Shown in pieces: positions 2,529 through 31,735 of a DNA stretch of 38,876 bases (positions within the stretch are counted from its first letter, which is position 1; every line of letters starts with the position of its first letter). The notes under the pieces were generated by a model that worked only from the letters and a program-made list of their open reading frames with translations, was not told the DNA's origin and searched no databases. Source of the DNA: Phycisphaerales bacterium (GTDB lineage Bacteria > Planctomycetota > Phycisphaerae > UBA1845); the NCBI GenBank assembly GCA_020344555.1, contig CP070827.1, forward strand, positions 1 to 38,876, written 5' to 3'. Made by a program: the position numbers and the translations under genes.

Positions 2529-3778
2529 GCGATTCCGCAGCCATCTGTCGCTCATGTGCAGGCTCCGATCTGAGGCTTGTACTCTCATTGGGGAAGGTTG
2601 CCCTGGCGGACAGGTTGCTGACCGACCAGACCCTGTCCGAGCCGGAGCCAACGTACTCTCTCACGGTATACTTCTGCTCTGACTGTGGGCTGATGCAGAT
2701 TGCGGAAACGGTTCCTCCGGAGGTCCTTTTCTGTAACGACTACCCCTACTACTCCTCATTCTCCCCTGCTCTCCTAGAGCACTCCCACCAGAATGCTGAG
2801 GAACTGATCCGGACGTGTTCTCTGGGGCCGGACAGTCTTGTGGTGGAGCTGGCAAGCAACGATGGCTACCTCCTCAAGAACTTCGTTGAGCACGGAATAC
2901 CTGTGCTCGGAATCGATCCGGCAGACGGGCCTACTCGTATCGCCCAGGAGAATGGTGTAGAGACTCTGTGCACCTTCTTTACGGAAGAGCTGGCACACCG
3001 GCTGCGGGGAGAGGGCCGGGCAGCGGATGTCGTCATTGCCAACAATGTCTTGGCGCACGTGGCTGGTCTGAACGATTTCGTAAGAGGGATCGGGGCGTTG
3101 CTCAAGAAGAATGGCACGGCCGTTATCGAGGTGCCTTATGTGAAGGATCTGGTTGACAACTGCGAATTCGACACGATCTATCATGAGCATCTATGTTATT
3201 TCTCAGTGACCGCGCTAATGGCACTTTTCGCAAGGCACTCCCTGTCGCTGAACGACATAAGACAGCTGACGATCCACGGCGGGTCCTTAAGGCTGTACGT
3301 CGGCCACGAGGTCGATGTGAGCCCGAGGGTAACATCGCTGATCGAGGAAGAAGTGACGGAAAAGATCGATCAATTTGCCTACTACCAGGATTTTTCCGGC
3401 CGGGTCACGAAGATCCGTGAGTCACTGCTTGATCTCCTTTCGGGTTTGAAGCGGGAGGGTAAGCGAATTGCCGCATATGGAGCGGCAGCCAAAGGAGCTA
3501 CGTTGATCAACTACGTCGGGATCGGGAAAGAGCTGATCGATTTCGTGGTCGACCGGAACATACACAAGCAGGGACGCTATATGCCCGGCAAGCACCTGCC
3601 GATTTTCGCCCCGGAACGACTCGTCGACGAGATGCCCGACTATTGCCTGATACTTGCGTGGAACTTCGCAGACGAGATTATGGAGCAACAGGCAGAATAC
3701 GTACGTAGGGGCGGGAAGTTCATAGTACCGGTGCCCCAGCCAAGGGTTCTCCACAACGAGACTGCCAGCGCGGGATGA
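2525..3778 (+). CDS. NDP-hexose C-methyltransferase (TylC3/NovU type), copy 1
   Basis: This 417-residue SAM-dependent enzyme has the three-part layout of sugar C-methyltransferases. First is an N-terminal zinc-binding domain with C8/C11 and C51/C54 (CxxC pairs). A Rossmann SAM-binding fold follows, with [10 protein letters not shown] at about 108-117. A C-terminal domain carries the diagnostic [10 protein letters not shown] at 218-227, where the Tyr-His-Glu-His cluster is the catalytic site in the family. Such enzymes add a methyl to C3 (or C5) next to a keto group of a 4-keto-6-deoxy NDP-sugar, giving a branched sugar. The start is GTG at 2525 in a GTGA overlap with the preceding SDR, and its stop overlaps the next methyltransferase start (ATGA). 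Of the three tandem copies this one keeps the canonical YHEH, so it is the best candidate for standard activity. Confidence 0.9.
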
Positions 3779-4959
3779 AACCTGTGGACACCAGGTGCCC
3801 CAACTGCAACGCATCCGGAATGGATGTGTTCTATGAGGTGAAGGATATTCCCGGGCACAGTTGCCTGATGCTGGACGATCGACGGGCCGCCTTAGAGTAC
3901 CCTAAACGGGACCTCTCGCTTGGATTCTGCCGTGTGTGCGGGTTCATATCCAACGTTATTTTTGACGCGCGGGTTCTGGAATACTCCGCACGCTACGAAG
4001 AACAGCAGTCGTTCTCGCCGCGGTTTCGAGCGTTTCAGACGGAACTAATTGCCCGACTTATTGAACAATATGACATGCGGGACAAGGATGTCGTCGAGAT
4101 CGGCTGTGGTAAAGGTGATTTCCTGCTCGAACTGTGTGAAATGGGTCGGAACCGGGGTGTTGGCATCGACCCGGCCTGTGAGCCCGAACGAATGCAGGGG
4201 CGCGGTGACGGGCGCGTGCACTTCATTCGGGATTTCTACTCGGACCGCTGTTCGGAATTACCGTGCGACTTTCTCTGCTGTCGCCATACGCTCGAGCACA
4301 TCCATTCGACTAACGAGTTCGTCGGTTTAACGCGCAAGGTTGTGGGCGATCGACGTGATATGATCGTGTTCTTTGAAGTCCCCGCAGTCGAGCGCGTGTT
4401 GGGCGAGGCGGCGTTCTGGGATATTTACTACGAACATTGCTCATACTTCAGTCTGGGCTCCCTGGCTCGAGTCTTTCGGGCGAACCGGTTCGAGATCAGC
4501 GAGCTTGCTACGGATTTTGACGACCAGTATCTGCTGATCGTCGCCCGGCCCGTGGACAAGCCGACCGCGCCACTATTGCCCGAAGAAGATGACCTGGAGC
4601 AGATTACACACGATGTCGCAGACTTCAGTGTTAAGGTGATGGATCTGATCAGCACTTGGCGATCACGGGTCATTGCGTTTCGGGAGGGGGGGAAGCGAAT
4701 CGCCGTCTGGGGTTCCGGTTCCAAATGTGTGGCGTTTCTGAGTACCGTGGGCGTCGCGAGCGAGATTGAGACCGTGGTGGACATCAATCCCTACCGTCAA
4801 GTTAAGTGGTTGCCAGGTTCGGGCAAGCAGGTTGCAGCGCCAGAGTCGCTGCGGGTCACCCCGGTGGACGTCATCCTGGTCATGAACCCGATCTACTGTG
4901 AGGAAATCCGGCGCGATCTGGACGCCATGGGCGTCTCTGCAAAACTGGTGCCGGTGTAA
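3775..4959 (+). CDS. NDP-hexose C-methyltransferase-like protein, copy 2
   Basis: A 394-residue paralogue of its neighbours. Zinc-ligand pairs are C8/C11 (CPNC) and C52/C55 (CRVCGF). The SAM motif is EIGCGKGDFL at about 108-117. A C-terminal segment IYYEHCSYFS (217-226) replaces the canonical [10 protein letters not shown] of copy 1, so the first catalytic His is Tyr while Glu-His is kept. It has a CCRHTLEH stretch before the active-site region that is shared with copy 3 and absent from copy 1. ATG at 3775 forms an ATGA overlap with the preceding stop. The family role is C-methylation of a keto NDP-sugar. The His-to-Tyr change may alter regiochemistry or substrate, which is inference. It ends 21 bases before copy 3. 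Confidence 0.85.
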   Translation: MKPVDTRCPNCNASGMDVFYEVKDIPGHSCLMLDDRRAALEYPKRDLSLGFCRVCGFISNVIFDARVLEYSARYEEQQSFSPRFRAFQTELIARLIEQYDMRDKDVVEIGCGKGDFLLELCEMGRNRGVGIDPACEPERMQGRGDGRVHFIRDFYSDRCSELPCDFLCCRHTLEHIHSTNEFVGLTRKVVGDRRDMIVFFEVPAVERVLGEAAFWDIYYEHCSYFSLGSLARVFRANRFEISELATDFDDQYLLIVARPVDKPTAPLLPEEDDLEQITHDVADFSVKVMDLISTWRSRVIAFREGGKRIAVWGSGSKCVAFLSTVGVASEIETVVDINPYRQVKWLPGSGKQVAAPESLRVTPVDVILVMNPIYCEEIRRDLDAMGVSAKLVPV

Positions 4960-4980
4960 GCCATAGTAGCTTGAAACAAC

Positions 4981-6204
4981 ATGTGCAGTAAAGTGGGAAC
5001 GAGGCCCAAATCCTACGAAAAGACAGCCGGTGGGTTATGCTGCCCCGTCTGTGCGACTGATGAGGTATCAGTGTTCTGGGAGATGCGCGATCTCCCTCTC
5101 AAGTGCAACGTGCTCTGTTCCACCAGAGAGGAGGCTCTGGCAGTCCCGCGCGGCGATATCCGTCTGGCCGTTTGTCATTCCTGCGGATTCATCTATAATA
5201 CGCTCTTCAATGCGAGCACTATGCAGTATGATGCGGGGTATGAGAACGCCCTGCATTTCTCGGCACGTTTCAGGGAGTATGCCGAGAGCCTAGCAAGGCG
5301 GCTCATCGACAAGTACAACTTGCGGCAGAAGGACATCCTGGAGATCGCGTGCGGCGACGGATACTTTCTGAGGTTGCTGTGCGAGCTGGGCAACAACCGT
5401 GGCATCGGCTTTGATCCTAGCTATGTGGAAGATACATCGAAGGGGAACACCTATTCCAACGTGGCCATCATTCCGGATTACTACGGTGAGCAGTACGCTG
5501 ACCGAAAGGCGGACCTGATCTGCTGCCGGCATGCCCTGGAGCACGTACCGGATCCGGTGGGGTTTCTGCGGATGGTCCGCCGGGCCATGGGCGAGTGTCG
5601 CGATACTGCTGTGTTCTTCGAAGTTCCCAACGCACTGTTCATCCTGCGCGATCTGAGTGTCTGGGACATTATCTACGAGCATTGTTCGTACTTCAGTGCA
5701 GCCGCCCTGGCCAAGTGCTTTTCGCGTTCTGGCTTCGCGGTGGAAGCGGTTACGGAGGAATATGACGGACAATTTCTCAGCCTCGAAGCGCAACCGGTCA
5801 CAGATCGGCCCGGCGGGTTGTCGGCAGAACTGGGCAATCCAGCCGAGGTAGTCCGTGAAGCGGCGTTGTTCGCCGGACGTTTCGGCGAGAAATCTCAGAA
5901 GTGGGCGGACCGGATGGAGGCTTTGCGCCGGGCCGCTGAGCGGGTTGTGGTCTGGGGGGCAGGATCAAAGGGCGTTACCTTTCTTAATATGATGAAAGGT
6001 GCGGATCTGGTGGAGTACGTCGTGGACATCAATCCGCGCAAGCAGGGCATGTTCGCTGCTGGCACGGGGCAGAGAATTGTCTCGCCCGAGTTTCTTCGTG
6101 ATCATCGCCCTGGTACTGTGGTTGTCACGAACGCCATCTACACCGACGAGATCCGCAACGCATTCGGCAGGATACAGTTGAGCCCCGAACTGGTAACGGT
6201 TTAG
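4981..6204 (+). CDS. NDP-hexose C-methyltransferase-like protein, copy 3
   Basis: A 407-residue enzyme, closest by eye to copy 2. CPVC is at residues 21-24 and CHSCGF at 65-70 (zinc pairs). EIACGDGYFL is at about 121-130 (SAM site), with CCRHALEHVP before the active-site region. IIYEHCSYFS at 230-239 has Tyr in place of the first His of the YHEH motif. Copies 2 and 3 also share FFEVP and the C-terminal VVDINP segment, consistent with tandem duplication. The ATG at 4981 has no good Shine-Dalgarno and 21 bases separate it from the previous stop, so translation may rely on readthrough from upstream. It probably works on a second sugar or position in the same branched-sugar pathway; the substrate cannot be read from sequence. 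Confidence 0.85.
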   Translation: MCSKVGTRPKSYEKTAGGLCCPVCATDEVSVFWEMRDLPLKCNVLCSTREEALAVPRGDIRLAVCHSCGFIYNTLFNASTMQYDAGYENALHFSARFREYAESLARRLIDKYNLRQKDILEIACGDGYFLRLLCELGNNRGIGFDPSYVEDTSKGNTYSNVAIIPDYYGEQYADRKADLICCRHALEHVPDPVGFLRMVRRAMGECRDTAVFFEVPNALFILRDLSVWDIIYEHCSYFSAAALAKCFSRSGFAVEAVTEEYDGQFLSLEAQPVTDRPGGLSAELGNPAEVVREAALFAGRFGEKSQKWADRMEALRRAAERVVVWGAGSKGVTFLNMMKGADLVEYVVDINPRKQGMFAAGTGQRIVSPEFLRDHRPGTVVVTNAIYTDEIRNAFGRIQLSPELVTV

Positions 6205-10236: not shown

Positions 10237-10415
10237 CTCTCTGCATCGGAGCTGTTCACGTCTCGACGGCGAAGAGACTTCTCGCGGGGCGCTCCGCCCC
10301 TTGGAACCGGACCGATTGACGGCACATTGGCTCCGGAAGCGACGGCAGCGTCGAGAAACGCTGAGATCTTGGCGCGCCCTGTTGATGTGCCGTGTCAGCA
10401 AGGTCAGCGTCATCT

Positions 10416-12077
10416 ATGGCCAAGGTAACCGCCAAAGGCATAGGGCGTAATACACTGTATGGCGTGCTTGCGCAGGTTTGGCGCATCGGCTCGCGCATCG
10501 TCCTGACCCCACTGATCATCGCCAAGATTGGGCTGGAGGGATACGGTACCTGGACGCTGCTTTTTACACTTTGCGCCTACGCTGCCGTCGTCGACAGGAC
10601 GTTCAGCACGGCCTATGGCAAATTCACGGCGGAATTCGACGCCATGGGTGACTATCGGAGGCTGTCGCAGATTATCTCCTCGGGGGTCGCGTTTGTCACC
10701 GTGGTGGCGGTAGCCGCTCTGGTCGTCGTCTGGCTGTTTCGGTCGCCGGTCCTCAGGGGTCTGGGCGTGCCTAACAGGGTGTTGGCCCAGGCGAGCCGGG
10801 CGCTGCTAGTCGTCTGTGTAGCCGTTTCACTGAGGATGTCGTTGGGCTACGTGTTGCAGGTACTCGCCGGCCTTCAACGAATGGATCTCCAGTACAAACT
10901 GGGGATTCTCGCTTCAGCCGTCGAGTTCGTGACTGCGATCGCACTACTCTGTTTGGGTTGGGACCTGCTGGGGCTGGCGATGGGGCATTTGTGTGGGCAG
11001 GTGCTGGCGATCACTGCAGCTTGGTGGCTGTGTCGTCGCCTATGTCCGGAGCTACGAGTCTCTCCGCATTTCATCACACTGTGGGGCCTGCGTCGCATTG
11101 TGTCTCTAGGCGGTCGGTTTCAGCTTCTGGCGATTCTGCGCCTTCTAATGGACCAAGGGACCAAAATGCTAATCTCTGGCCTGCTGGGTGTGGCGACGCT
11201 CGCCCTATACGAACTGGCATTCAAACTGCTTTCGTTAGGCAGCACCGTCGGCGGTGCGCTGGTCGCACCGCTCATGCCTGCGTTTGCGAATCTCTATGCG
11301 AGGGATGATCGGCGGGCGTACCGTAGCTTTTTCACGCTTTCGTCCAAAGCAGTGGCCGCAGTTTCGTTCCCGTGCTTCGCGTTCATCGCCATTTTCGCGG
11401 ATCAACTCATTCTGCTGTGGACCGGCCAGGAGTACCCATTGGCGGCTTGGACGACGCGCTGCCTGGCGCTCGGCTTCTTCGCGCTCATGCTCACCAGTGT
11501 CGGGACCGCGAGCCTCCGCGGGCAAGGCACGATTCGTCTGGAAATGGGGCTGGCCCTTATCACTACGTCGCTTCTCGCTCTTCTACTCGCTCCCGGGTAC
11601 ATGCTGTGGGGTTATCGAGGAATCGTTGGCGCTATACTGGCAGGCATCGCCGTCGGGCCTGCCTGGTTCGTCGCTGCATACGCTCGCCGGGAACTGCTCG
11701 ACCTGCGAAGCTACCTTCATGCAACCGTGCTTCGCCCGGCAATCACGCTGGGTCCGCCGATCCTGGCGATCGCGGCTCTTGCCCACGCCACTCCGTTTAC
11801 GCTTTCTCTGGCCAACCCGCGGTGGAATGCGCTCGCCGAACTGACGCTTTGGGGGGTGCTGTTCAGTGTGCTCGTCGGCTGTTGCGGCTGGTTCTTCCTC
11901 CTGTCGTCCGCGGATCGGGCCCGGCTCGAAACAGTCTTTCGCCCGTCGGCTGCGGAGCGTCGCCGGCCGGCAACAGATAGTGTGACGCCGATGTCCCGCA
12001 GTCACGGTATCCGAGGGCACCAGAAAACTAGAATCCGAGAGACACCCGCGCGGCATCCTCCTCGTGAGCTTCGCTGA
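10416..12077 (+). CDS. Polysaccharide flippase (Wzx/MATE-like oligosaccharide transporter)
   Basis: 553 residues, highly hydrophobic, with around a dozen membrane segments. The N-terminal AKGIGRNTLYGVL, the RIGSRIVLTPLIIAKIGLE helix and YGTWTLLF are typical of the MOP/polysaccharide-biosynthesis transporter superfamily. It probably moves the undecaprenyl-linked glycan repeat unit from the inner to the outer leaflet of the cytoplasmic membrane. I use the ATG at 10416; a GTG at 10392 would add eight residues, and neither has a strong Shine-Dalgarno. The C-terminus overlaps the start of the polymerase gene by 14 bases, coupling flippase and polymerase as expected for a Wzx/Wzy pathway. The last 50 residues are hydrophilic and not family-conserved. 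Confidence 0.88.
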   Translation: MAKVTAKGIGRNTLYGVLAQVWRIGSRIVLTPLIIAKIGLEGYGTWTLLFTLCAYAAVVDRTFSTAYGKFTAEFDAMGDYRRLSQIISSGVAFVTVVAVAALVVVWLFRSPVLRGLGVPNRVLAQASRALLVVCVAVSLRMSLGYVLQVLAGLQRMDLQYKLGILASAVEFVTAIALLCLGWDLLGLAMGHLCGQVLAITAAWWLCRRLCPELRVSPHFITLWGLRRIVSLGGRFQLLAILRLLMDQGTKMLISGLLGVATLALYELAFKLLSLGSTVGGALVAPLMPAFANLYARDDRRAYRSFFTLSSKAVAAVSFPCFAFIAIFADQLILLWTGQEYPLAAWTTRCLALGFFALMLTSVGTASLRGQGTIRLEMGLALITTSLLALLLAPGYMLWGYRGIVGAILAGIAVGPAWFVAAYARRELLDLRSYLHATVLRPAITLGPPILAIAALAHATPFTLSLANPRWNALAELTLWGVLFSVLVGCCGWFFLLSSADRARLETVFRPSAAERRRPATDSVTPMSRSHGIRGHQKTRIRETPARHPPRELR

Positions 12078-13431
12078 ACTCGTACTCCTGGCGTGGATAC
12101 CGATCAGCGCCGCTCTGTTTGCGCTGTTCAGGCCGGCCCGTGCGCTCGTTCTTGCCTACCTAGTCGGTTGGCTTCTGCTGCCGATGGCCCGGCTCCAGAT
12201 CGAGGGTTTCTGGGACATTAACAAGACGCTAGCTACTAACATGGGCGTGGTGACCGGCCTTTTTCTCTTCTGTCCACGAACGCTCAAGGGCTACAGGGTT
12301 GGTCCGGCCGATGTCGGGATCCTCGTGTTTGCGGTGGTGACAGGCATTGCGTCGATGCTCAACGGCCTTGGCGCGTATGATGGCCTGTCCTCCGTTGTCC
12401 AACAGATATTCTACTATGCCATACCCTTTTGTCTCGGGCGTGCAGTCTTGCGCACCCCACGTCACCTCCTCGATGCTAGTCGGCTCATCATTACGGGAGC
12501 GGCTCTATACGCCGTACTCGCCGTTTGGGAGTGGCGCATGAGCCCCCGTATACACAGGACGCTATACGGGTACTTCCAGCACGGATTCTCCCAGCACATG
12601 CGCTGGGGGCGTTATCGACCCATTCTATGCTTCCCTCACGCCCTCGGCCTTGGTAGTTTCATGGCTTGGACCTCGTTGTTGGGTATTTGGCTGCACCGCG
12701 CTCGCCAACTTCCACCCCTATTCGGAGTCCCCTCAACCGCAATCGTGCTGCTGCCACTGCTCGGTCTGGCCGCCTCAATGTCTTTCGGTCCGTGGGGCCT
12801 GTTTCTCGCCGGCTTCAGCCTTCTCCTACTGTGGCGCTGGACGGGCCGACGTTGGCTGTTTCTACTGCCCGCCTTCTTCACACTTCTTTGGATGAGCGGA
12901 CGTTACACGACTCTCGTCGATGGCCAGTGGTTGACCTCGGCTGTCGCAAAGGTATCAACCGAACGTGCAAGCTCGCTTCAATATCGGATCGATGCTGAAG
13001 CCCGGCTGCTGGACCACGCGAGGGAGCGTCCGGTCTTCGGTTGGGGCACCCGGGCTAGGGACCCTTTTCGGAACGATGCTGGACGTTTCCTCTTTGCGAC
13101 CGACGGACTCTGGACGATTTTCCTTAGTTTCTACGGTCTCGCGGGCTTGCTTTCCTTCTATCTATGGTGGTGCTGGCCTTTGTTGGTGAGCACGAGGCCG
13201 AATAGGCGAACTGTGCTAGACGCCGCGGTTGAAGCCTCACTGGTGGCCATCGGCATGCAAGCGGTGAACTTCCTCTTTAACGGCTTCCTGAGCCCCGTGC
13301 TTACCCTGATCTGTGGGGCAGCAGTCAGCTCCTTGGAGACATCAAGAGGAGAGACAGACACTTGCCGTCCCACCTTGCCTGGGCTGCCGCCGTCGAGATC
13401 GCCAAGCGCGCTCCCTATACCAACGCCATGA
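12064..13431 (+). CDS. O-antigen polymerase/ligase-like membrane protein (Wzy/WaaL type)
   Basis: 455 residues with about ten hydrophobic segments. A large hydrophilic loop between later segments includes ERPVFGWGTRARDPF (about residues 320-334), matching the RPxxGxG loop of Wzy_C-type O-antigen polymerases and ligases. The expected role is to join flipped repeat units on the periplasmic side, or to ligate the finished chain. The two cannot be separated from sequence alone. The start is GTG 12064, inside the flippase C-terminus. The stop overlaps the next ATG (ATGA), continuing the coupled chain. The last 30 residues are Pro/Ser/Thr-rich and look like an unstructured tail. Confidence 0.82.
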   Translation: MSFAELVLLAWIPISAALFALFRPARALVLAYLVGWLLLPMARLQIEGFWDINKTLATNMGVVTGLFLFCPRTLKGYRVGPADVGILVFAVVTGIASMLNGLGAYDGLSSVVQQIFYYAIPFCLGRAVLRTPRHLLDASRLIITGAALYAVLAVWEWRMSPRIHRTLYGYFQHGFSQHMRWGRYRPILCFPHALGLGSFMAWTSLLGIWLHRARQLPPLFGVPSTAIVLLPLLGLAASMSFGPWGLFLAGFSLLLLWRWTGRRWLFLLPAFFTLLWMSGRYTTLVDGQWLTSAVAKVSTERASSLQYRIDAEARLLDHARERPVFGWGTRARDPFRNDAGRFLFATDGLWTIFLSFYGLAGLLSFYLWWCWPLLVSTRPNRRTVLDAAVEASLVAIGMQAVNFLFNGFLSPVLTLICGAAVSSLETSRGETDTCRPTLPGLPPSRSPSALPIPTP

Positions 13432-14378
13432 AGGACGTCACCATCGTTATTGTCAGCTATAACGTCAGGGATTTGCTACGTGATTGTCTTGCATCGATTC
13501 CATCCGGCTGCCAGGGCCTCATCACTGAGACGTTCGTTGTGGATAATGCAAGCTCCGACCGGTCCGCCGAAATGGTCAGCCGAGAATTCCCCTGGGCCCG
13601 CCTGCTTCACAACGAGAACAATGCTGGATTTGCAGCTGCAAACAACGTGGGCCTGTGTCAGGCTACCGGTCGCTACGTTCTTCTGCTAAACCCTGACACT
13701 CGGTTGCGCCCCTCTGCCGTGTTCGAACTGGTTCGCTTTATGGATGCGCGGCCATCTGCTGGCTATTGTGGCCCTCGCCTTCTCAATGGCGATACCAGTC
13801 ACCAGCCTTCGGCACGGCGCCTTCCAACGTTGTTCAGCACCGCTTATTCCCTGCTTGGACTCTCCAGCCGCTTCCCCAAGAGCCGTCACGCGCTTGATCT
13901 GCATCTATTGCACGGTCACACAAAGGACTTCCGCGCGGATTGGCTGACGGGAGCCTGCTTGCTCGTCCGAGCAAGCTGCGTGCGCCAGGTGGGGGCCCTG
14001 GACCCGGGGTTCTTCCTGTACTTCGAGGAGACTGACTGGTGCAGGCGTATGCTGGCGGCAGGCTGGACTGGCTGGTTTGTGCACCGTGCTGAAGTGGTTC
14101 ATTTGGGTGGCCGGAGCGTCTCCCACGCAGGCGCAACGGACCTTTTTTTCGGTAACCACCCCATTCACTGGATTCGGAGTAGCCGGCGCTACTTCCGCCG
14201 CCAATACGGGCTTCTGGGGATGTTGTGGTCCGAATTCGTCCAGCTGCTGCTGTACTCGTTGATCTGGTTGCGCCATCGCTGGCAAAGGAAAGCCGAAAGT
14301 CGGCTGAAAGCACGTCGCGCGGCCGGCACCATCCGTTATTTGTTGTTCTCAAGAAAGCCCAAGGATTCACCCACGTAA
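13428..14378 (+). CDS. GT2 glycosyltransferase, WbbL-like (rhamnosyltransferase family)
   Basis: 316 residues. This GT-A family 2 enzyme resembles WbbL-type rhamnosyltransferases: VTIVIVSYNVRDLL at 4-17, VDNASSDRS at 38-46, a NAGFAAANN loop at 65-73 and LLLNPDTRL at 85-93 (DxD-equivalent Asp90). It also has GACLLVRA (175-182) and the catalytic EETDW at 200-204. A C-terminal hydrophobic and basic stretch (about 265-310) may tether it to the membrane. Family members often transfer L-rhamnose from dTDP-rhamnose, which fits the rmlD gene at the left edge, but the donor is inferred. I reject the upstream in-frame start at 13362, because ATG 13428 restores the family N-terminus and gives an ATGA overlap with the polymerase. 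Confidence 0.9.
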   Translation: MKDVTIVIVSYNVRDLLRDCLASIPSGCQGLITETFVVDNASSDRSAEMVSREFPWARLLHNENNAGFAAANNVGLCQATGRYVLLLNPDTRLRPSAVFELVRFMDARPSAGYCGPRLLNGDTSHQPSARRLPTLFSTAYSLLGLSSRFPKSRHALDLHLLHGHTKDFRADWLTGACLLVRASCVRQVGALDPGFFLYFEETDWCRRMLAAGWTGWFVHRAEVVHLGGRSVSHAGATDLFFGNHPIHWIRSSRRYFRRQYGLLGMLWSEFVQLLLYSLIWLRHRWQRKAESRLKARRAAGTIRYLLFSRKPKDSPT

Positions 14379-16013: not shown

Positions 16014-17305
16014 CTGCTAGTACATCAGCATCCGGCTATGGGTATCTGGTAGTGATTCATATCCCGTATGCACTCGCCCAGGATGGTTCCGTGCTAACTG
16101 GTGCGATGTGGGTCAAGGACTTGCGTGGAATGGCGGCACACCTCGGACGGATAACTGTCGCTGCGCCAGTGCTGCCGCTATGGCAACTGACGCCTGCGAA
16201 AGCGGGTAGTTTTGATCTTGCGTGCGTTGCTCGTGGTGATCCAGAGCTGACGTTCGTTCCTCTTCCCTATTACAGCTCGGCTGCAACGTTCCTTAAGTCC
16301 AGCCCGCGTCTCGTTCGGGAACTGGCACGGCATGTCCGACGTGCGAGCATCGTACATATTGATACAGGCGGGTGGCCGCTCCCGCCGGGAGAACTGGCTT
16401 TCTTTTTCGCGAGGTGGATGGGTAAGCGGACGGTCCTTTTCGCGGGTGACGGGGCCGATCCCCTCAGTCGGTTCGACGAGAAGGCTTCCCGCGACCGTTC
16501 TCTGCCCAGAAAGCTCTGGACGCGCGCGCTGAAGACACAGTTTCGTTGTTTCTGCCAGTGCGCAGCCGGCGGAGCGGATCTCGTGTTCTTTCACAATCCC
16601 GTCACGGAAGCTCATTTTGCCAAGTATGCTCGACGGTACGAGACGATCGTTCGGACCTTCGTTGATGTCGCCCTGATCCTTTCCCCCGAACAGGTCCAGG
16701 CGAAGCTCAGCAGACTCACGGAGCACGAGTCGTTGCGCTGCATCATGGCGGGCCGCCTGATTCCCATGAAGGGCGTCGATCACGCGATTGCTGCTCTGGC
16801 ACATGCACGGAACAAGGGAATCCGCGCCACCTTGTCCGTCGTAGGCAACGGATCCGAAGAATCACGCCTGCGTGGACAAGCAAGACGGGCGGGACTCGAC
16901 AGTGCCATCCAATTCATTGGCTCGGTTCCGTACGGACCGGAGCTCTTTGGCCTTCTACAAGCCCACGATGTGGTCATCGTGTGCAACTTGACCGAGGAAC
17001 TGAGTCGAAACGTACTTTTGAGCATGGCTCTTGGCAGCATCGTCCTCGCCTATGACAACGGCCCGATGCGAACCGTGGTTCGCCATAATACAAACGGACT
17101 GCTAATCCCGCGGGGATCGGTCGAGGCCCTCGGCGATGCCCTCGCGAGGCTGGCCACGGATCGGCGCCTGCAAGGGAAGCTCCTCAAAGCTGGGATCCGT
17201 ACTGCCCAGGGCTACACGTTTGAAGCCTGCCACGCCCGGAGGGCCGAACTCATACGACATGTGACCGACGCGTCCCCACGGCATCGTCCTTCGCTCAATG
17301 ACTGA
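16010..17305 (+). CDS. GT4-like glycosyltransferase with altered EX7E motif
   Basis: 431 residues, GT-B fold. The donor domain has AGRLIPMKGVDHAI (247-260), SVVGNGSEESRL (276-287) and QFIGSVPYGPEL (301-312), all family-typical. The usual NVLLEAMA segment reads NVLLSMALG (334-342), so the second Glu of EX7E is replaced: Glu330 pairs with Ser338, and the segment is one residue short. In GT4 enzymes these Glu residues contact the donor, so activity or donor choice may differ. The N-terminal half is divergent. ATG 16010 overlaps the sulfatase stop, and the gene overlaps the next one by 8 bases. It probably adds one sugar to the repeat unit; specificity unknown. Confidence 0.82.
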   Translation: MTASTSASGYGYLVVIHIPYALAQDGSVLTGAMWVKDLRGMAAHLGRITVAAPVLPLWQLTPAKAGSFDLACVARGDPELTFVPLPYYSSAATFLKSSPRLVRELARHVRRASIVHIDTGGWPLPPGELAFFFARWMGKRTVLFAGDGADPLSRFDEKASRDRSLPRKLWTRALKTQFRCFCQCAAGGADLVFFHNPVTEAHFAKYARRYETIVRTFVDVALILSPEQVQAKLSRLTEHESLRCIMAGRLIPMKGVDHAIAALAHARNKGIRATLSVVGNGSEESRLRGQARRAGLDSAIQFIGSVPYGPELFGLLQAHDVVIVCNLTEELSRNVLLSMALGSIVLAYDNGPMRTVVRHNTNGLLIPRGSVEALGDALARLATDRRLQGKLLKAGIRTAQGYTFEACHARRAELIRHVTDASPRHRPSLND

Positions 17306-18224
17306 ATTCCAAGAACTGTGGGCGGCGTCAGCCAAGTCGGACCTTGAACACCTAGCTTCGAGCCGACGCGGCGACATTGTTTACCGCCCCCGAAACGTAC
17401 TGGGACACCTGCTACTGAAGTTGGCTCGGAGACACATCTTCACCTACGCCATAGAAGATCGACCGAAGGAGCGTTGGCTGCAACAAGCAATGACGCAAAC
17501 GGGCACCCACATCTTGGACATCGGTGTTCGTACTGGTTATCATGCCCATTTGTTCAAGAAACGTGGCAAGCGTGTATACGGACTCGATATTGCGTCCGTC
17601 TATATCGACCATTGCCTCAAGAGCGCCTCTATCGACTACGGCGCTGTCTGTGATGTGGAACGAGATCAAATACCCGTGCCTGCCGATTTTGCCTGTGGTT
17701 TACCCACATACTATGACGCGATTTTCGCCGGCGAGATTATCGAGCACCTGCTCGACGCTCGGCGTTTCTTCTACAAGCTCGCGCGCGTCTGCCGACCCGG
17801 CGGCTGCCTTATCGTAACAACGCCGAATCTCGCATATCTGGGAAACCGCTTCCGGCTTCTTCTCGGCAGGGACCTTCATCCACTCACGATGGATCGCGGA
17901 GTCACCGGCCATCAGCATATACGCGTATACACATGTAGACTGCTCGGTCGCCTTCTTGCCGAAGTGGGCTTTCGAATCACTCAAGTCGCAGGCGACGGGC
18001 TGCTTTTGGATCTCAGACGGGCCCTTGATACCGTCCGTATATCCTCGCAACGCTCCACTCTCCTGACCGATTCCCAACCACCCCTACTGACCGTTCCCTT
18101 CTCCGGGACGCTGTTGCCGCGGCTGGGCCTAGTCCTGTACGTCCAAGCTCACAAGGGCTCCGACCATGCGGATCCCCTACCACAAGCGGGCAATACCCGT
18201 TGTCCATCCCGAGGATGCTCTTGA
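17298..18224 (+). CDS. Class I SAM-dependent methyltransferase
   Basis: 308 residues. Motif I is ILDIGVRTGYHAH (72-84), followed by GLDIAS (95-100), the acidic loop that binds SAM ribose. IFAGEIIEHLLDARRFF and CRPGGCLIVTTPN are the standard motif II/III region of methyltransferase type 11/12 enzymes. It probably O-methylates a sugar of the exported glycan or its lipid-linked precursor; the locus context is the only pointer. The gene overlaps the preceding glycosyltransferase by 8 bases. About 98 non-coding bases follow. The final 50 residues are Ser/Pro-rich and not part of the catalytic fold. Confidence 0.85.
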   Translation: MTEFQELWAASAKSDLEHLASSRRGDIVYRPRNVLGHLLLKLARRHIFTYAIEDRPKERWLQQAMTQTGTHILDIGVRTGYHAHLFKKRGKRVYGLDIASVYIDHCLKSASIDYGAVCDVERDQIPVPADFACGLPTYYDAIFAGEIIEHLLDARRFFYKLARVCRPGGCLIVTTPNLAYLGNRFRLLLGRDLHPLTMDRGVTGHQHIRVYTCRLLGRLLAEVGFRITQVAGDGLLLDLRRALDTVRISSQRSTLLTDSQPPLLTVPFSGTLLPRLGLVLYVQAHKGSDHADPLPQAGNTRCPSRGCS

Positions 18225-18322: not shown

Positions 18323-20269
18323 ATGCAAACACTAGATTCTTCCACGGTACAAGCTACAGAGACTCCTCCAATCAGTATTGTGGTCATCGGGCGCAATGAA
18401 GGCGCCCGTCTTCTTCGCTGCCTGAACTCGATCTGCGAAGCAGACTTTCCACGGCACCAGTTAGAGGTGATTTACGTGGATACCGCCTCGACAGACGGAA
18501 GCGCCAAACGCGCGGAGCCTCTTGCGGATCGCGTTGTTCAGATCCGTCCGGCGCGACCCTCGGCCGCCGCCGCTCGGAATGCAGGTTGGCAGGTAGCGCG
18601 CCACGAGTTGGTGCAATTTCTGGACGGCGATACCGTTCTTCACAGAGATTGGCTGCGAACTGCAGTCCGTGCCATCAGGATACCGCACGTCTTCTGTGTA
18701 AGCGGCCGGCGAGAGGAGGCAGATCCGCAGCGCAGCGTCGTCCGCTACTGGGTCCACCGAGACTGGTGTATCCCACCTGGACTGCAACGCGTGTGTGGAG
18801 GGGACGCGATGTTCCAGCGCATAACACTTATCGACTTGGGCGGATACGATGAAACGCTGATCGCTGGCGAGGAACCTGACCTGTGTCTTCGCGCGGTCCG
18901 GGCCCATAAGGGGAGAGTACTGTCACTTGATGTCCCAATGACCGTGCACGACATTGGTGAGCTGACGCTTCGACAATACTGCCGCCGTTGCGTGCGAACG
19001 GGGCACGCCTACGCAGAGGTGGCCTTGCGAGAGGTGACACGCGGTGGGCACGCATGGGTACGCGAGAATTTACGTATACCTTTCCCATTGATGCTCCTCG
19101 CAGCAGCGCTTTTCGCCAGCCTTTCGCTCCACACAGTCTGGCCTCTCGTTGCCTGGATTGCCATATTGCTTGGTCAATACTGTCGCTTTGTCATTTCAGA
19201 GTTGCGAGTGGTTAAGAGTATCAAGTGGTCCCTTCTCGGGGCGTTGCGTCGCTTTGTGTGCAAGCCGCCCCAGCTGGCCGGGCAGTTCTTGTTCCTGTTT
19301 CGGCGACTCACCGGGGTGGGGCGCGGTCATATCATCGAGTACGACACATGTAGTTCTGAGCTTGACCGACCCGGATATAAGGACCCCGAAGAATTGCCAC
19401 AAGGGCCACCCGCAGCACACGACGCTCGATCCGGTTTGGAAGTCCACCGAGGCAAAGTAGCTGTCGATAACCAGGTGTTCGAGTCTCGTAAGTTGTACGA
19501 AACTTGGAACGCACAGTACTACGACTCCAGACAAACGCAGTTTTACGATGAGACGCTTCGCCGGATTGTCCAGGGCCTGGGGCTGTCACGGGGGGACGAG
19601 GTACTAGACATCGGTTGTGGTCCTGGCGCGCACGCCTTGCGCCTGGCGGGGATGGGGCTACGGGTGGTAGCCGCTGATGTCTCCCGAACGGCCTTGGCTC
19701 TTGCTGAAGAGGCGGTGAAGGATGCGGGATTACAGGAGCAGTTCACAGTGTGCCAACAGGACATCACTCACTTGAACTTTCCCGACGGCCGGTTCCAGGC
19801 GGTGCTGTGCTGGGGTGTTCTCATGCATGTCTCCGACATTGCCCGCGCTGTTGCCGAGCTAAGTCGTGTCCTGCAGCTTGGCGGCAGACTCGCGCTCGGC
19901 GTGAATAATGGCTCGTCTCTGGACGCCTTGCTCGTCATGGCTTTCCGTACGTCGGTACGCCGGCGCGTCGAATCCCACTGGGAACTGTTCGGACGTTGCC
20001 GGTACTACGGGACGCCCTCCGGGCCATTGCTCGTCCGCGACATTCGCGTCCCGCATCTCATACACCACGCCAGTTCGGTTGGGCTTCGTTGCCTTGAGCG
20101 TCGCGCGGGCCAACTGACGGAATTACATAGCAGGGTACGGACACCCTGGTTGCGCGATATCTTCGCTCGTGTTAACACCATCTGGAGCCGCCATATCGCT
20201 TGGCCGAGCATAGCACAGAACAACATACTCATCTTCGAGAAATATGCTGCTGCAGGTCGAAATCATTAG
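18323..20269 (+). CDS. GT2 glycosyltransferase-SAM methyltransferase fusion
   Basis: 648 residues in one uninterrupted frame with two enzymes. Residues 16-240 are a GT2 domain: ISIVVIGRNEGARL at 17-30, VDTASTDGS at 52-60, the FLDGDT metal motif at 99-104 and GEEPDL at 182-187. Two hydrophobic segments at about 252-292 attach it to the membrane, and a hydrophilic linker covers roughly 335-385. Residues 385-648 are a class I methyltransferase with VLDIGCGPGAHAL (427-439), a GVLMHV stretch and LGGRLALGV. The layout suggests that one chain transfers a sugar and then methylates the product, giving an O-methylated residue or a methyl cap that ends chain growth. That is inference. The ATG at 18323 has no strong ribosome site. 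Confidence 0.85.
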   Translation: MQTLDSSTVQATETPPISIVVIGRNEGARLLRCLNSICEADFPRHQLEVIYVDTASTDGSAKRAEPLADRVVQIRPARPSAAAARNAGWQVARHELVQFLDGDTVLHRDWLRTAVRAIRIPHVFCVSGRREEADPQRSVVRYWVHRDWCIPPGLQRVCGGDAMFQRITLIDLGGYDETLIAGEEPDLCLRAVRAHKGRVLSLDVPMTVHDIGELTLRQYCRRCVRTGHAYAEVALREVTRGGHAWVRENLRIPFPLMLLAAALFASLSLHTVWPLVAWIAILLGQYCRFVISELRVVKSIKWSLLGALRRFVCKPPQLAGQFLFLFRRLTGVGRGHIIEYDTCSSELDRPGYKDPEELPQGPPAAHDARSGLEVHRGKVAVDNQVFESRKLYETWNAQYYDSRQTQFYDETLRRIVQGLGLSRGDEVLDIGCGPGAHALRLAGMGLRVVAADVSRTALALAEEAVKDAGLQEQFTVCQQDITHLNFPDGRFQAVLCWGVLMHVSDIARAVAELSRVLQLGGRLALGVNNGSSLDALLVMAFRTSVRRRVESHWELFGRCRYYGTPSGPLLVRDIRVPHLIHHASSVGLRCLERRAGQLTELHSRVRTPWLRDIFARVNTIWSRHIAWPSIAQNNILIFEKYAAAGRNH

Positions 20270-20384: not shown

Positions 20385-21722
20385 ATGAAGAATATTCGCT
20401 TTATCACTGATCGCGCTGCACTACCGCGGTTCTCGCGCACGCGCCATCTGGAGCCTCGAACTAGCAAGGCACCCGCAGTGCGCATCGCTTATCTTACCAG
20501 CGTGTATCCCGCCGTGTCCCACACATTCATCATCCGTGAAGTGCAGGCTCTGCGTAAACAGGGAGTTGGGGTCGATACGTTCAGCATCCGGCGCCCCCCG
20601 GCTGAGCAGCCTATCTCGGCTCAGGATACCAAAGAACAGGACGCCACGTACTATATCCTGCCACCGCGTTGGCCTCGGCTGTTTGCCGCACACCTCTCAG
20701 CACTCAGCAGCCGACCGCTCCGATTTCTCGCTGCCTTCCACTTTGCACTGGCAACCCATCCGGGAGGAATGCACTCACTCCTGTGGCATTTCTTCTATTT
20801 CGTCGAGGGCGTGCTGCTATGGCACGAGCTGAACCGTCGTGGCATTGCCCACATTCACGTCCACTTCGGCATGGCCTGTGCCACGGTTGTAATGATTGCG
20901 TCACAGCTCGGGGATTTTTCGTACAGCATGACGCTTCATGGTCCCACCGTGTTCTACGATACCTCCCGATTCCTCCTGCGTGAGAAAGTACAGCGCGCAA
21001 TGCTGGTCTTCTGCATCAGCGCCTTCTGTCGCAGCCAGGTTATGGTCCACGTCCCGCCAGAACACTGGCAAAAGCTGCACATCGTCCACTGTGGCGTTGA
21101 CACCGGAGCTTATTCGTTTGCCGGCCCGCGCGCCGCAGCGTCTGGCGGGCCGCGCCTCCTTTGTATCGGCAGACTCGTTCCGGAGAAGGCTCAGGCGATT
21201 CTCCTACACATGATAGCGCGCCTTCGCGGAGACTACCCGACGATCAACTGTACGCTGGTTGGGGACGGACCCGATCGCACTAGGCTTGAGGCGCTCGCGC
21301 AGCGCCTGGGCATTCGCGACCGCTTGAGCTTTGTAGGCTCCGTTAGTCAAGAGGATATTCCGACCTACTTAGAGCAATCTGATGTGTTCGTACTGCCGAG
21401 CTTCGCAGAGGGCCTGCCTGTGGTCCTCATGGAAGCGATGGCCAAGGGACTTCCTGTAGTCACGACGTACATCGCCGGAATCCCGGAACTAGTCCGCGAT
21501 CACGAGACCGGCTTGTTGGCGCCCTCCGGGGATGTCGAGGCGCTGACCACTGCCGTTCGTGAGATCTTGGAAGACCCCAAGCTTCGAGACCGACTAGCGC
21601 TCAGCGCACGAGAGAAGGTACTGAAGGAGTTCGACATCAACCAGATCGGCGACCGTCTCGCGAGGATTTTCGGAACGCAATTGGCTTCGCAGGGCCGCGC
21701 AGACGGTAACGAGGCAGGCTGA
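20385..21722 (+). CDS. GT4 glycosyltransferase, WcaL/colanic-acid type
   Basis: 445 residues. Family signs are RIAYLTSVYPAVSHTFI (33-49), typical of WcaL-like enzymes whose substrate loop follows SHTF. HIHVHFG and LHGPTVFYD follow, then the donor domain LLCIGRLVPEKAQ, LVGDGPDR, and EX7E in EGLPVVLMEAMA. It transfers a sugar from an NDP donor to the growing lipid-linked chain. The first 31 residues look unlike the family. A GTG at 20478 with AAGG upstream would restore the usual short N-terminus and may be the true start; I keep the ATG for completeness. The next gene begins 7 bases after the stop. Confidence 0.88.
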   Translation: MKNIRFITDRAALPRFSRTRHLEPRTSKAPAVRIAYLTSVYPAVSHTFIIREVQALRKQGVGVDTFSIRRPPAEQPISAQDTKEQDATYYILPPRWPRLFAAHLSALSSRPLRFLAAFHFALATHPGGMHSLLWHFFYFVEGVLLWHELNRRGIAHIHVHFGMACATVVMIASQLGDFSYSMTLHGPTVFYDTSRFLLREKVQRAMLVFCISAFCRSQVMVHVPPEHWQKLHIVHCGVDTGAYSFAGPRAAASGGPRLLCIGRLVPEKAQAILLHMIARLRGDYPTINCTLVGDGPDRTRLEALAQRLGIRDRLSFVGSVSQEDIPTYLEQSDVFVLPSFAEGLPVVLMEAMAKGLPVVTTYIAGIPELVRDHETGLLAPSGDVEALTTAVREILEDPKLRDRLALSAREKVLKEFDINQIGDRLARIFGTQLASQGRADGNEAG

Positions 21723-28093: not shown

Positions 28094-31000
28094 TCAACGT
28101 TCATACGCACCGACGTCCCCCAATGAATCCCGCGGTTTTCCATCAGCGTCGGTCGGCGCGAGCAGCGGTCCCACCCTGTTGAGAAGTGGCGACATGCTCA
28201 GTGGGCGCCCGAACGTATCAAGCATCGGATCACCAGTCGTTATGTTGCTCCCCGGTGTTACTGTAAAGTACTTACCATCCGGCTCCGGTGGCACGCTTGT
28301 GTGGACATAGTGATTAGCATCCCAGGAAGAGGTATCTACACTTGCAGCTGAGATTTTGGCGCGACTAAACACGGTTCCCCTCACATCAAACTCCGTTATT
28401 ACTGTATCCTGTCCTACAGGATTGTCATCGTAGATGGCAAACGCGCCGGAGTCCGCAGAAGGACTCACGAACGCACAATGCCACAGAAGAACATGCTCTG
28501 CGGGTATCATCCACAGATTGGATCCGCCTCCGCCCCCACCCGCAGATCCTGGCCTAATTGGATCTCCGAATTCGATGTACACGTTGACAAAAGCCATATC
28601 TGCAGGCGGTGGGACGCCACTACAGGTCCGTACAGGCGAAACAGATGTCGTCCAGCGAAGCATGAGCCCTTGGTAATGCACATCCGCAGCACGCACATTA
28701 TAGAGTATGGTGTTCCTCGGAGCGCTACAGCCATGCCTCTGCCAGACGTCCGCGTGCCAGTACGTTGATCCAGGATCTATCCCTGTAGCATCGATGTTAA
28801 TTCCCAGTGGGTGGTTTTGGAAAATATCGTCGCCGATATGCTCAATTCTTACGTTGCGTGCGAGCCTACCGCCCCCAACAGCAAAGGCCGTATCATAAAT
28901 ATATACGTTGGTGAACCACTTATGCTTCAGGCCAGGATCCACAGGATTTGATCGCACTACCCAACGGCCTCCACCTATAATATCGCAATCGTGCACCCAG
29001 AGCATCTCGGGTCTAGGCGATTTGAATATATAGCCAAACTCACGGGTACTCTGGAGGGTAATCCCCTCGACCTTTGTCAATTTAGTATGTGGCGCGCTGC
29101 CACCGGTGGCGATCCGGGTGTTCCCCTTTGTGCCCCCGGCTGCCGTTGTGATGGTCACCCACTCGCCAACGGTTGGGATCTCCGACCAGATACCGCCAGC
29201 TGACATCAGATGGGTTCCCGTATTGAGGTGAACGAGACCCCCATCGGCCTTGTTTCCGTGACCGTTTGCGTTCATCCACTCTCTTATCTTGTCAACGGCC
29301 TTGCCAATTGTTAAGAAGGGCTGGGTCGGACTATTGACCCGGCCGGTGGAGTCATCACCATCCAAGTCCACCCATGCTTCCGGCCGTGGCAAGCCTCCGG
29401 TTGGATTGACTAGTAGACTAAGCGGATCGAGACCCAGGCCACCGCCGCCCGTATTCTTGTCCCGGATCCCCCCGTCGACGCCATGTACAGTAGCTTCAAC
29501 TGTGATTGGCCCATCGGAGGCGAAGGAGTCCGCGCTAATCGGAATCCAATACTCGTAGACATCGGTCTGATCGTTGTAGGTCATTTCCCTGACCTCTATC
29601 GGCGATGGGCCATCATAGCCTTGGCCCGCGATGGTAAACACTACCCGTTCAATGCCGTGCTTGGAGAACGCGACTACGCCGCAGTTGAGCGTATCGGCCT
29701 GGTCGATTCGTTGATAGGGCACGACATCCCAACGTGCGATCGGGGTCAAACCGCCTGAGGGATCCTGGACCATCACGGTTACCGTGTCGGACGCGGAAGT
29801 ACCGGTAGCATCGGTGACCGTGAGCGTATAGGTGGTCGTCGTACTCGGCGACGCTGCGGGTTGGGCGGCTGTGGGATCGTCAAGGTCAGTTGTGGGCAGC
29901 CAACGATATTGGTAAGGCGGTTCTCCACCTGACGCACTTCCTGCCAGCGTCGTGATGTTACCGCGTGCAATCGTTTTGTCCGGCCCGGCGTCAACGGAAA
30001 GCTGCGCCGCTTCGACCGTAACGGTCACGGAGTCACTGGCCGTCGTACCGTCGCTGTCCACAACGCTCAGGGTATACCTTGTGGTCGTAAGCGGTAAGGC
30101 CGTCGGCTGCGAAACGTTCGGGTCGCTCAGCCCGGTAGACGGCGTCCAGGTGTACGTGTACGGTGACGTTCCCCCGTAGGCGAATCCCGCAAGTGTAACG
30201 GAACTTCCGATCGTGACGGTCAGATCGGCGCCCGCCTCTGCGACCAAGGGACCCTCCGTGCTAATCGTGAAATTACACACGTCATGAGAACCGTTCGACG
30301 CCCACAGCCCACGGTTGTTGAGTTCGGCCACCGCGTTCTGCTCAGTGCGGAAGGCATAATCGGTCGCGAGTGCTACCTCCGGTTCGCTAGGGTCCGGCGG
30401 GGTGACGTAGACGCTGTAGGTGTGAGACGGCACGTTGACAACAACGCGCATGTGATAGAGCGATCCGGATGAGTAGCCCAGTAGCACATCAGCGCCATAG
30501 GCTCCGCCGTTTCGAGCATCGATGCGACCGTCCACATTGAATCGAATCAAGACGGCATAATCGGCGAAAGTGCTCCCCGGTCCGGACGAAAGGGTAACCA
30601 GCCCGTCGACGCTCTCGCCTCGCGGAGTCACATCGAACGCTGCGATGAAGACACCTCGCTGCGACCCAATAGCGAGGTTTTGCCAATCCGATGAGCTGGT
30701 ATTGCATCCAGTCGGCCCACTCTCGCAAGCGTCGCCTACACCGTCAAAGTCACCATCAGACTGGTCAGCATTGGCGACTTCTGGGCAGTTATCGACGTCA
30801 CCGCAAACGCCGTCACCGTCCACATCATTATTCGGATCGTTGGAGCAGGCATCGTTGCAGTCCGCGGTGCCGTCGTTGTCGCTGTCCGTGTCTGGATTCC
30901 CGCAACCGCACTGACCTGGTTCGGTTTTGTCGGGATCGTTCGGGCAGTTATCGACTATTTCGACGATGTCCAGTACGTCGACCGGGACAGTCACGTCCGT

Positions 31001-31735
31001 GCCCCGCAGCCCGTCACTTACGGTGAGGGTGAACGCCACACGCACGTCACCATCAACAGTTGGAGCTACAAAACTCGCCACCGCCGCAGAAGCATCGACC
31101 AGTTGCACCAAGTGGCTGGCGTCTCCGGTCACCTGGGCCCACGCGAAGGAAATGTCGTCCCCATCAGGGTCGTAACTCTCGGACCCATCCAGAAACAGCT
31201 GCTCGTTCTCGTACACCCCCCAAACCTGCTCGCCCTCAGCTCCGTCCCTCTCGACGATCCGACCGTCTTTGGAAACGGCTTGCGCCACGGCAACAGGCGC
31301 TTGATTCGGGGGAGGTGGCAATTCGATCTGGATGTCGAGCGTTAATACGAAGACCTCGTTTCCGTTTGGCTCCATAGCGCGGACCGATATTACGTACGCT
31401 CCAGCCTGGGTGAAGATATGGGACACGGTCAGGCCTTGATACGCTTGCCCGTCGATCTCCCACTCGAAGCGCAGATTACTGTCCTTTGGTGGTCGCTGGG
31501 GCTTCAGTGCGAAGGTCCACTCCCCTGCCGGGTCATCGCTCTTGGCAGCGACGATCTCGTAGCCGTAGTCCTCTCCAGCTACGGTCGAAAACAGGGTATC
31601 TGAGCTGCTCGTTGTGCCGGCCTGCGGACGTGCAATCGTGCCACAGCCACCTAGACCTGCAACCGCAAACGTGAAGCCGATAAGTGGAACCGCGGCGCAC
31701 CAACGCCAGAAGTCTGCGCAAGCTTCTCTCGACAT
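28094..31735 (-). CDS. Large multidomain surface lipoprotein (PKD, thrombospondin-3, beta-helix)
   Basis: 1213 residues. The N-terminal signal ends in lipobox LGGC, so Cys31 should be lipidated. Domains by eye: a PKD-like fold (about 75-140), a second PKD/REJ-like domain (145-255) with LFLDGSESYDPDGDD, Asp-rich thrombospondin type-3 calcium repeats (262-338) with Cys pairs, a lectin-like beta region (342-505), and two tandem PKD-like repeats (about 508-690). A long C-terminal right-handed beta-helix follows (about 850-1213), ending with the DVGAYER tail seen in choice-of-anchor-Q proteins. It is probably an outer-surface adhesin or carbohydrate-binding protein that may hold the exported glycan, which is inference. 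The start has a strong AGGGGGAG site. A TATGAT hexamer at 31783-31788 is a weak -10 candidate. Confidence 0.85.
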   Translation of the reverse strand: MSREACADFWRWCAAVPLIGFTFAVAGLGGCGTIARPQAGTTSSSDTLFSTVAGEDYGYEIVAAKSDDPAGEWTFALKPQRPPKDSNLRFEWEIDGQAYQGLTVSHIFTQAGAYVISVRAMEPNGNEVFVLTLDIQIELPPPPNQAPVAVAQAVSKDGRIVERDGAEGEQVWGVYENEQLFLDGSESYDPDGDDISFAWAQVTGDASHLVQLVDASAAVASFVAPTVDGDVRVAFTLTVSDGLRGTDVTVPVDVLDIVEIVDNCPNDPDKTEPGQCGCGNPDTDSDNDGTADCNDACSNDPNNDVDGDGVCGDVDNCPEVANADQSDGDFDGVGDACESGPTGCNTSSSDWQNLAIGSQRGVFIAAFDVTPRGESVDGLVTLSSGPGSTFADYAVLIRFNVDGRIDARNGGAYGADVLLGYSSGSLYHMRVVVNVPSHTYSVYVTPPDPSEPEVALATDYAFRTEQNAVAELNNRGLWASNGSHDVCNFTISTEGPLVAEAGADLTVTIGSSVTLAGFAYGGTSPYTYTWTPSTGLSDPNVSQPTALPLTTTRYTLSVVDSDGTTASDSVTVTVEAAQLSVDAGPDKTIARGNITTLAGSASGGEPPYQYRWLPTTDLDDPTAAQPAASPSTTTTYTLTVTDATGTSASDTVTVMVQDPSGGLTPIARWDVVPYQRIDQADTLNCGVVAFSKHGIERVVFTIAGQGYDGPSPIEVREMTYNDQTDVYEYWIPISADSFASDGPITVEATVHGVDGGIRDKNTGGGGLGLDPLSLLVNPTGGLPRPEAWVDLDGDDSTGRVNSPTQPFLTIGKAVDKIREWMNANGHGNKADGGLVHLNTGTHLMSAGGIWSEIPTVGEWVTITTAAGGTKGNTRIATGGSAPHTKLTKVEGITLQSTREFGYIFKSPRPEMLWVHDCDIIGGGRWVVRSNPVDPGLKHKWFTNVYIYDTAFAVGGGRLARNVRIEHIGDDIFQNHPLGINIDATGIDPGSTYWHADVWQRHGCSAPRNTILYNVRAADVHYQGLMLRWTTSVSPVRTCSGVPPPADMAFVNVYIEFGDPIRPGSAGGGGGGSNLWMIPAEHVLLWHCAFVSPSADSGAFAIYDDNPVGQDTVITEFDVRGTVFSRAKISAASVDTSSWDANHYVHTSVPPEPDGKYFTVTPGSNITTGDPMLDTFGRPLSMSPLLNRVGPLLAPTDADGKPRDSLGDVGAYER

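Follow-up and report, generated by a model that had tools for sequence, protein, structure and literature searches.

A polysaccharide locus in the window (the whole stretch of DNA analyzed here, 38,876 nucleotides) contains an open reading frame joining a GT2 glycosyltransferase domain, a membrane part, and a SAM-dependent methyltransferase. This raises the question of whether the two enzymes are genuinely produced as one chain and, if so, whether the chain couples sugar transfer to O-methylation or, as also suggested in the first-pass annotation, caps a glycan and thereby sets its length.

Organization of the locus and of the fused reading frame

The window lies at the beginning of a single-contig genome of 5.25 Mb with a completeness of about 71%. 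The surroundings of the fused ORF form a polysaccharide locus comprising an RmlD-like gene, nucleotidyltransferase and epimerase genes, several GT2 and GT4 genes, a sulfatase-like gene, and a PssD/PssE pair. The features referred to below are the following.

10392-12077 (+): Wzx-like flippase
12064-13431 (+): Wzy-like polymerase/ligase
13362-14378 (+): second GT2 gene, of a kind located beside the standalone GT2 in many related loci
17298-18224 (+): separate methyltransferase gene, immediately preceding the fused ORF (Pfam)
18323-20269 (+): fused ORF, in the order GT2, membrane hairpin, linker, SAM methyltransferase (ORF translation, Pfam)
18365-19042 (+): GT2 catalytic domain, residues ~15-240 (PF00535, conserved columns, confident model)
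19079-19210 (+): two-helix membrane hairpin, residues ~253-296 (hydropathy peaks, predicted helices)
19232-19342 (+): interfacial helix and natural C-terminal end (I-I-E-Y) of the GT2 module, residues 304-340 (end motif of standalone relatives)
19343-19477 (+): linker, residues 341-385 (low-confidence model; initial portion weakly coding)
19394-19396 (+): in-frame TTG, residue 358, candidate internal start of the methyltransferase (AAGG/AGGA 10-11 nt upstream)
19478-20251 (+): class I SAM methyltransferase, residues ~386-643 (Pfam, full-length alignment with four standalone relatives, fold)
20385-21722 (+): EpsE-like GT4, next gene downstream of the fused ORF (Pfam)

The order Wzy, GT2, XssN-type GT2, variable gene, and EpsE-like GT4 recurs, with variations, in related loci. 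The variable slot is occupied by a polysaccharide deacetylase in L089, L090, L092, L095, and L097 (Pfam) and in L099 (sequence similarity). In L094, an asparagine-synthase-like and a hexapeptide-transferase gene fill it, and in L088 and L091 it is empty. Also in the polysaccharide locus of the window, three consecutive genes (2525-6204) match PF08484, the C-methyltransferase C-terminal domain, suggesting tandem branched-sugar methylation genes. The contig opens inside the RmlD-like gene (11-658), which lacks about 80 N-terminal residues. A circular contig with the missing start of this gene at its far end was considered and rejected, as neither an overlap nor a continuation was found. A PKD-domain protein of 1213 residues (28094-31735, minus strand) adjoins the locus, and homologous PKD proteins flank L084 and L093.

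The fused ORF extends from an ATG to a TAG codon without any internal stop and encodes 648 residues. Pfam assigned residues 18-134 to PF00535 (GT2; E 7.8e-19, 68.6 bits versus a cut-off of 23.3) and residues 428-524 to PF08241 (methyltransferase; E 3.9e-22, 79.1 bits versus a cut-off of 21.2), both matches being well above the cut-offs, which are curated gathering scores. With both domains in-frame in a 648-residue chain, the joining of GT2, membrane part, and methyltransferase in one frame, as initially reported, was confirmed. The core residues of the GT2 are intact with respect to conserved alignment columns (DGD, 101-103; GEEPD, 182-186), with D101, G102, and D103 forming the conserved DXD in the alignment of relatives. 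Between the two domains, adjoining hydropathy peaks at residues 254-272 (1.82) and 274-292 (1.54, weaker) coincide with model helices at residues 253-269 and 273-296, thereby bearing out the proposed pair of membrane segments; another helix was modeled at residues 304-330. The GT2 half is complete, since it reaches the end motif of standalone relatives (residue 340). Motif I of the methyltransferase is VLDIGCGPG (residues 427-435), and the description of this domain as complete holds, since it can be aligned over its full length with four standalone proteins.

Structure models were obtained with separate alignments for the GT2 part and for the methyltransferase, the latter from residue 358 on. 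Model confidence was high for the GT2 half up to about residue 340 and low for residues 343-406. The separately folded methyltransferase displayed a confident Rossmann core, with a mean pLDDT of 73.0 for the whole model. No domain arrangement was read from a full-length model since its methyltransferase half, modeled from an alignment devoid of methyltransferase rows, was not confident. The GT2 model matched hyaluronan synthase (Z 25.7, rmsd 3.2, 313 aligned residues), and the methyltransferase model matched TleD (Z 24.3, rmsd 5.2, 196 aligned) and AtmM (Z 21.3, rmsd 3.1, 204 aligned). The closest solved relatives of the methyltransferase, by sequence and fold, include the sugar O-methyltransferases AtmM and RebM; many non-sugar methyltransferases scored as high as or above the sugar enzymes in the fold comparison. 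The even number of modeled membrane helices would place the GT2 active site and the methyltransferase both in the cytoplasm.

Relatives of the two halves and searches for a second fusion

The best matches to residues ~1-345 in genomes of the same genus, family, and order were standalone proteins. The GT2 part is 42-47% identical to twelve relatives of its clade. Standalone GT2s of this clade comprise 329 to 346 residues, based on start codons chosen in this analysis, and most of them end directly after L-I-E-Y-R/K. The fused GT2 aligned over its full length with the XssN-type family (GT2, two membrane helices, interfacial helix, I/L/V-E-Y end). The end motif was recognizable in 122 of 131 distinct GT2 ORFs, in which the next residue was K (101 ORFs), R (11), H (5), or another residue (5). 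D, present at this position in the fused ORF, was found in none of the 122.

The fused GT2 deviates from the XssN-type family in 5 of 62 near-invariant columns, including W220C; the residue replaced by Cys220 is a near-invariant Trp in 36 of 37 broader relatives. It also departs from 15 of 85 clade-conserved positions, versus 0 to 2 for each of the 12 clade relatives. These 15 deviations led us to suspect fast decay, which was ruled out by a relative-rate comparison, as the mean identity to outgroups was 0.362 for the fused GT2 versus 0.345-0.392 for the clade relatives. The fused GT2 is therefore no farther from the outgroups than its relatives, pointing to an early branch rather than to decay. 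Most of the GT2 tree was left open (11 of 15 inner branches). As judged from the sequence, the deviating residues make altered or lost GT2 activity possible.

More than 100 extra C-terminal residues were present in 10 of 147 GT2 ORFs (131 distinct) from the fetched loci, the additional partners being hexapeptide-transferase repeats in six, a GT4 in three, and a Gfo/Idh/MocA domain in one. The hexapeptide-transferase fusions of the XssN-type GT2-membrane module (L136, L139, L156, L170, L178, and L180) originate from Burkholderiaceae, Burkholderiales, Rhodoferax, Mitsuaria, Laribacter, and an uncultured betaproteobacterium, and represent a recurrent chain of a GT2 and a decorating enzyme. In three genomes of the same phylum (L016, L033, and L100), the XssN-type module is joined to a complete GT4. 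None of the 147 GT2 ORFs (131 distinct) also matched the methyltransferase of the fused ORF.

The join present in the fused ORF was seen in one genome only. A second chain containing an XssN-type GT2 and a methyltransferase was not found in 294 genomes of the phylum or 397 genomes of the class (the best three to four candidates per genome being scored), in 60 relatives, in 157 plasmid records (none covering 80% of the query), or in 80 of 573 named relatives; the phylum, relative, and class genome sets overlap. A scan of genome contigs with a single query sequence also gave no match. Methyltransferases joined to a GT4 were detected in G206, G182, and Azospirillum; in viral contigs L289 and L279, the partner of the methyltransferase is a GT4 or a mannosyltransferase-like domain. 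Apart from one weak GT2 relative, the other matches in scans of viral contigs were generic methyltransferases. One viral-contig ORF of 1159 residues (L286:16-3492) combines matches to an intein/LAGLIDADG element, a phage portal protein, and a C-terminal methyltransferase, and an ORF of equal length and match is present in L288. In the sets covered, the search for the same domain order revealed methyltransferases fused to other types of glycosyltransferases and no second chain of an XssN-type GT2 and a methyltransferase.

The methyltransferase profile matched 5 of the 397 class genomes, namely that of the window and four encoding standalone proteins. The latter comprise about 276 to 352 residues and align end to end with the fused domain with 28-34% identity. 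In G351, a GT2 homologue is followed by a fused Gfo/Idh-epimerase gene, the standalone methyltransferase gene, and an EpsE-like GT4 gene, the GT2 and methyltransferase homologues being separated by 2.2 kb on one strand. In both G351 and the window, the EpsE-like GT4 is immediately preceded by the methyltransferase. This layout is the one expected of the parent genes of the fusion, although the GT2 of G351 belongs to a more distant branch. An ORF of 725 residues composed of a Gfo/Idh/MocA oxidoreductase and an NAD epimerase (L084:8927-11101) lies between GT2 and methyltransferase homologues. The neighbors of the standalone methyltransferase vary in G526, G651, and G383 (Wzy-like, CDP-alcohol transferase, Gfo/Idh, xylose-isomerase-like, and PIG-L). 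A methyltransferase ORF was recognizable in 8 of 97 related loci and adjacent to the XssN-type GT2 in none of the 97, some of these loci being one contig fetched twice.

Natural fusion or assembly frameshift

The linker was examined for traces of the origin of the fused frame. Residues ~341-370 are the least gene-like part of the fused ORF (codon log-ratio of -6.0); other windows of the ORF were also negative (down to -2.5), indicating that the codon measure is noisy. In a shifted frame, a stop codon is present three codons past the normal GT2 end, an occurrence with a chance of about 0.10 in the shuffled linker. About 0.33 of shuffles of a linker of equal length and composition lacked a stop, so that neither a natural one-base change nor an assembly error is far-fetched. 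Together, the weakly coding linker and the usual GT2 stop in a neighboring frame point to a recent fusion or, less likely, to an assembly frameshift.

According to the latter explanation, the halves would be separate genes, artificially joined because the assembly has one base too many or too few close to the GT2 stop, and the two enzymes would act separately in one pathway. The intergenic-like linker and the shifted-frame stop are consistent with this explanation, as is the arrest of the family after I/L-E-Y-K/R (K or R next in 112 of 122 distinct ORFs, D in none). The TTG at residue 358, preceded by a motif resembling a ribosome binding site, could provide an internal start for the methyltransferase, the evidence for this start being weak because most genes of the window lack an AAGG/AGGA-like motif. 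In addition, the genome consists of one 5.25-Mb contig and yet is only about 71% complete. However, the sequence would look the same after a one-base change of natural origin as after an assembly error, and it is not unusual for XssN-type GT2s to be fused to another partner (10 of 147). The quality of the assembly was compared, by ORF coverage and split alignments, to that of a control genome of the same genus in 110 contigs. Frameshift sites were similarly infrequent (2 in 74.7 kb aligned, versus 1 in 37.5 kb for the control), and the coverage by ORFs of at least 200 residues was 0.771 in both genomes. Heavy genome-wide frameshifting was therefore rejected as a general explanation. In light of these observations, we regard separate genes joined by an assembly error as a minority prospect that deserves some weight, and a real fusion as quite probable.

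Proposed function and comparison with known systems

In Wzx/Wzy pathways, undecaprenyl diphosphate carries the repeat unit during its assembly on the cytoplasmic side of the membrane; Wzx then flips the unit, and Wzy polymerizes it outside. Nucleotide sugars and SAM are cytoplasmic. We propose, with a probability of roughly 0.55, that the fused ORF is a recent lineage-specific fusion of an XssN-type GT2 to a methyltransferase, and that a sugar is added to a lipid-linked unit and O-methylated before export. The fusion would have joined two genes of one polysaccharide locus, one for a membrane-anchored XssN-type GT2 and the other for a class I SAM methyltransferase. On the cytoplasmic side of the membrane, the GT2 half would transfer a sugar to the lipid-linked repeat unit, the methyltransferase tethered to it would O-methylate the added sugar or a neighboring one, and the methylated unit would then be flipped by Wzx and polymerized by Wzy. 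We thus infer that both domains are active, lie on the same side of the membrane, and act in this order, that a sugar is the O-methylated substrate, and that the fusion is of recent origin. The completeness of both halves, their predicted same-side topology, and the AtmM and RebM relatives make a coupling of sugar transfer to O-methylation, as first suggested, plausible, and the G351 locus contains both homologues as separate genes. Against the proposal stand the occurrence of the fusion in a single genome, the weakly coding linker, the deviating residues of the GT2 half, the fold-level nature of the matches to sugar methyltransferases, and the 97 related loci with no methyltransferase adjacent to the GT2.

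Alternatively, the fusion may be real and expressed, and the methyltransferase may act on something other than the product of its GT2, such as another sugar of the unit, a lipid, or a small molecule, the fusion serving only to tether the enzyme to the membrane or to fix its dose. The varied neighbors of the standalone methyltransferase in G526, G651, and G383 would fit such a target, as would the many kinds of substrates methylated by the fold neighbors. In the window as in G351, the methyltransferase immediately precedes the EpsE-like GT4 within a polysaccharide locus, which argues against this alternative; we consider it rather improbable. A more specific form of the originally suggested cap has the fused methyltransferase act on the non-reducing end of the glycan during its growth and in this way set chain length, as proposed for WsaE. 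This enzyme provides a single-chain precedent proposed to cap S-layer glycan chains, and a Wzz domain was not found in the ~71%-complete genome, leaving chain-length control unaccounted for. However, the window contains a locus of the Wzx/Wzy type with Wzx-like and Wzy-like genes, the cap-reading domain of Wzt (PF14524, Wzt_C) was not found in the ~71%-complete genome either, and WsaE is described with an ABC transporter as its partner. Since the genome is incomplete, the absences of Wzt_C and Wzz are both weak evidence. The type of the locus and the failure to find Wzt_C leave the chain-length cap without support; a chain-ending cap is unlikely in a Wzx/Wzy pathway, and we give this function of the fused methyltransferase little credence. 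If methylation precedes flipping, as in the preferred reading of a coupled transfer and methylation, the methyl group would end up in or on the repeat unit and would not terminate the chain. A methyl checkpoint, in which the fused enzyme would gate Wzx and Wzy so that only methylated units are flipped or polymerized, with consequences for the amount or length of the polymer, is a long shot; if true, it would lie outside ABC-transporter systems.

If the fusion is real, one particular sugar addition would be tied to one methylation, which would predict the residue of a planctomycete polysaccharide that is methylated. The versions of the GT2 module fused to an acyltransferase, a GT4, an oxidoreductase, and here a methyltransferase suggest that it serves repeatedly to anchor decorating enzymes, and its fusion partners may help to assign glycan chemistry. 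The fused ORF leaves ideas on chain-length control unchanged.

The closest characterized relative of the GT2 half is XssN (Slr5054) of Synechocystis sp. PCC 6803; the alignment spans the entire GT2-membrane module (335 positions, 37% identity). Both proteins end in the same motif at the GT2 level and are encoded in a Wzx/Wzy locus; in contrast to the fused ORF, XssN comprises 329 residues and lacks a methyltransferase. Deletion of slr5054 is reported to remove most of the exopolysaccharide synechan, the locus of which includes Wzx and Wzy (PMC8205485). The fused GT2 also resembles PcManGT of Pyrobaculum (6yv7), which combines a GT2 with a membrane part (Z 24.8, rmsd 3.2, 288 aligned) and the matched chain of which is devoid of a methyltransferase. 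The substrate pathway of PcManGT is different. In Azospirillum lipoferum 4B, WP_014249802, annotated as 'glycosyltransferase', is a chain of 616 residues containing a glycosyltransferase followed by a class I methyltransferase and is encoded beside a flippase gene; unlike the fused ORF, it contains a GT4 rather than a GT2, and its glycosyltransferase half gave no significant match.

The first-pass annotation likened the fused ORF to known separate capping systems, which understates the precedent, since the literature describes the single-chain enzymes WsaE and A064R. WsaE, acting on the S-layer glycan of Geobacillus stearothermophilus, contains a methyltransferase and two glycosyltransferase domains in one chain, is proposed to methylate and terminate the glycan, and works with the ABC transporter Wzm/Wzt (PMC2943079). 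WsaE differs from the fused ORF by an N-terminal methyltransferase, the presence of two glycosyltransferase domains, its description as a soluble protein, and its ABC-transporter pathway. A064R of PBCV-1 combines, in one chain, glycosyltransferase domains and, following them, a C-terminal SAM methyltransferase acting on a terminal rhamnose; it differs by two glycosyltransferase domains of other families and by its role in a viral N-glycan. The fused ORF is thus probably a genuine, recent, and so far single variety of the already known single-chain glycosyltransferase-methyltransferases.
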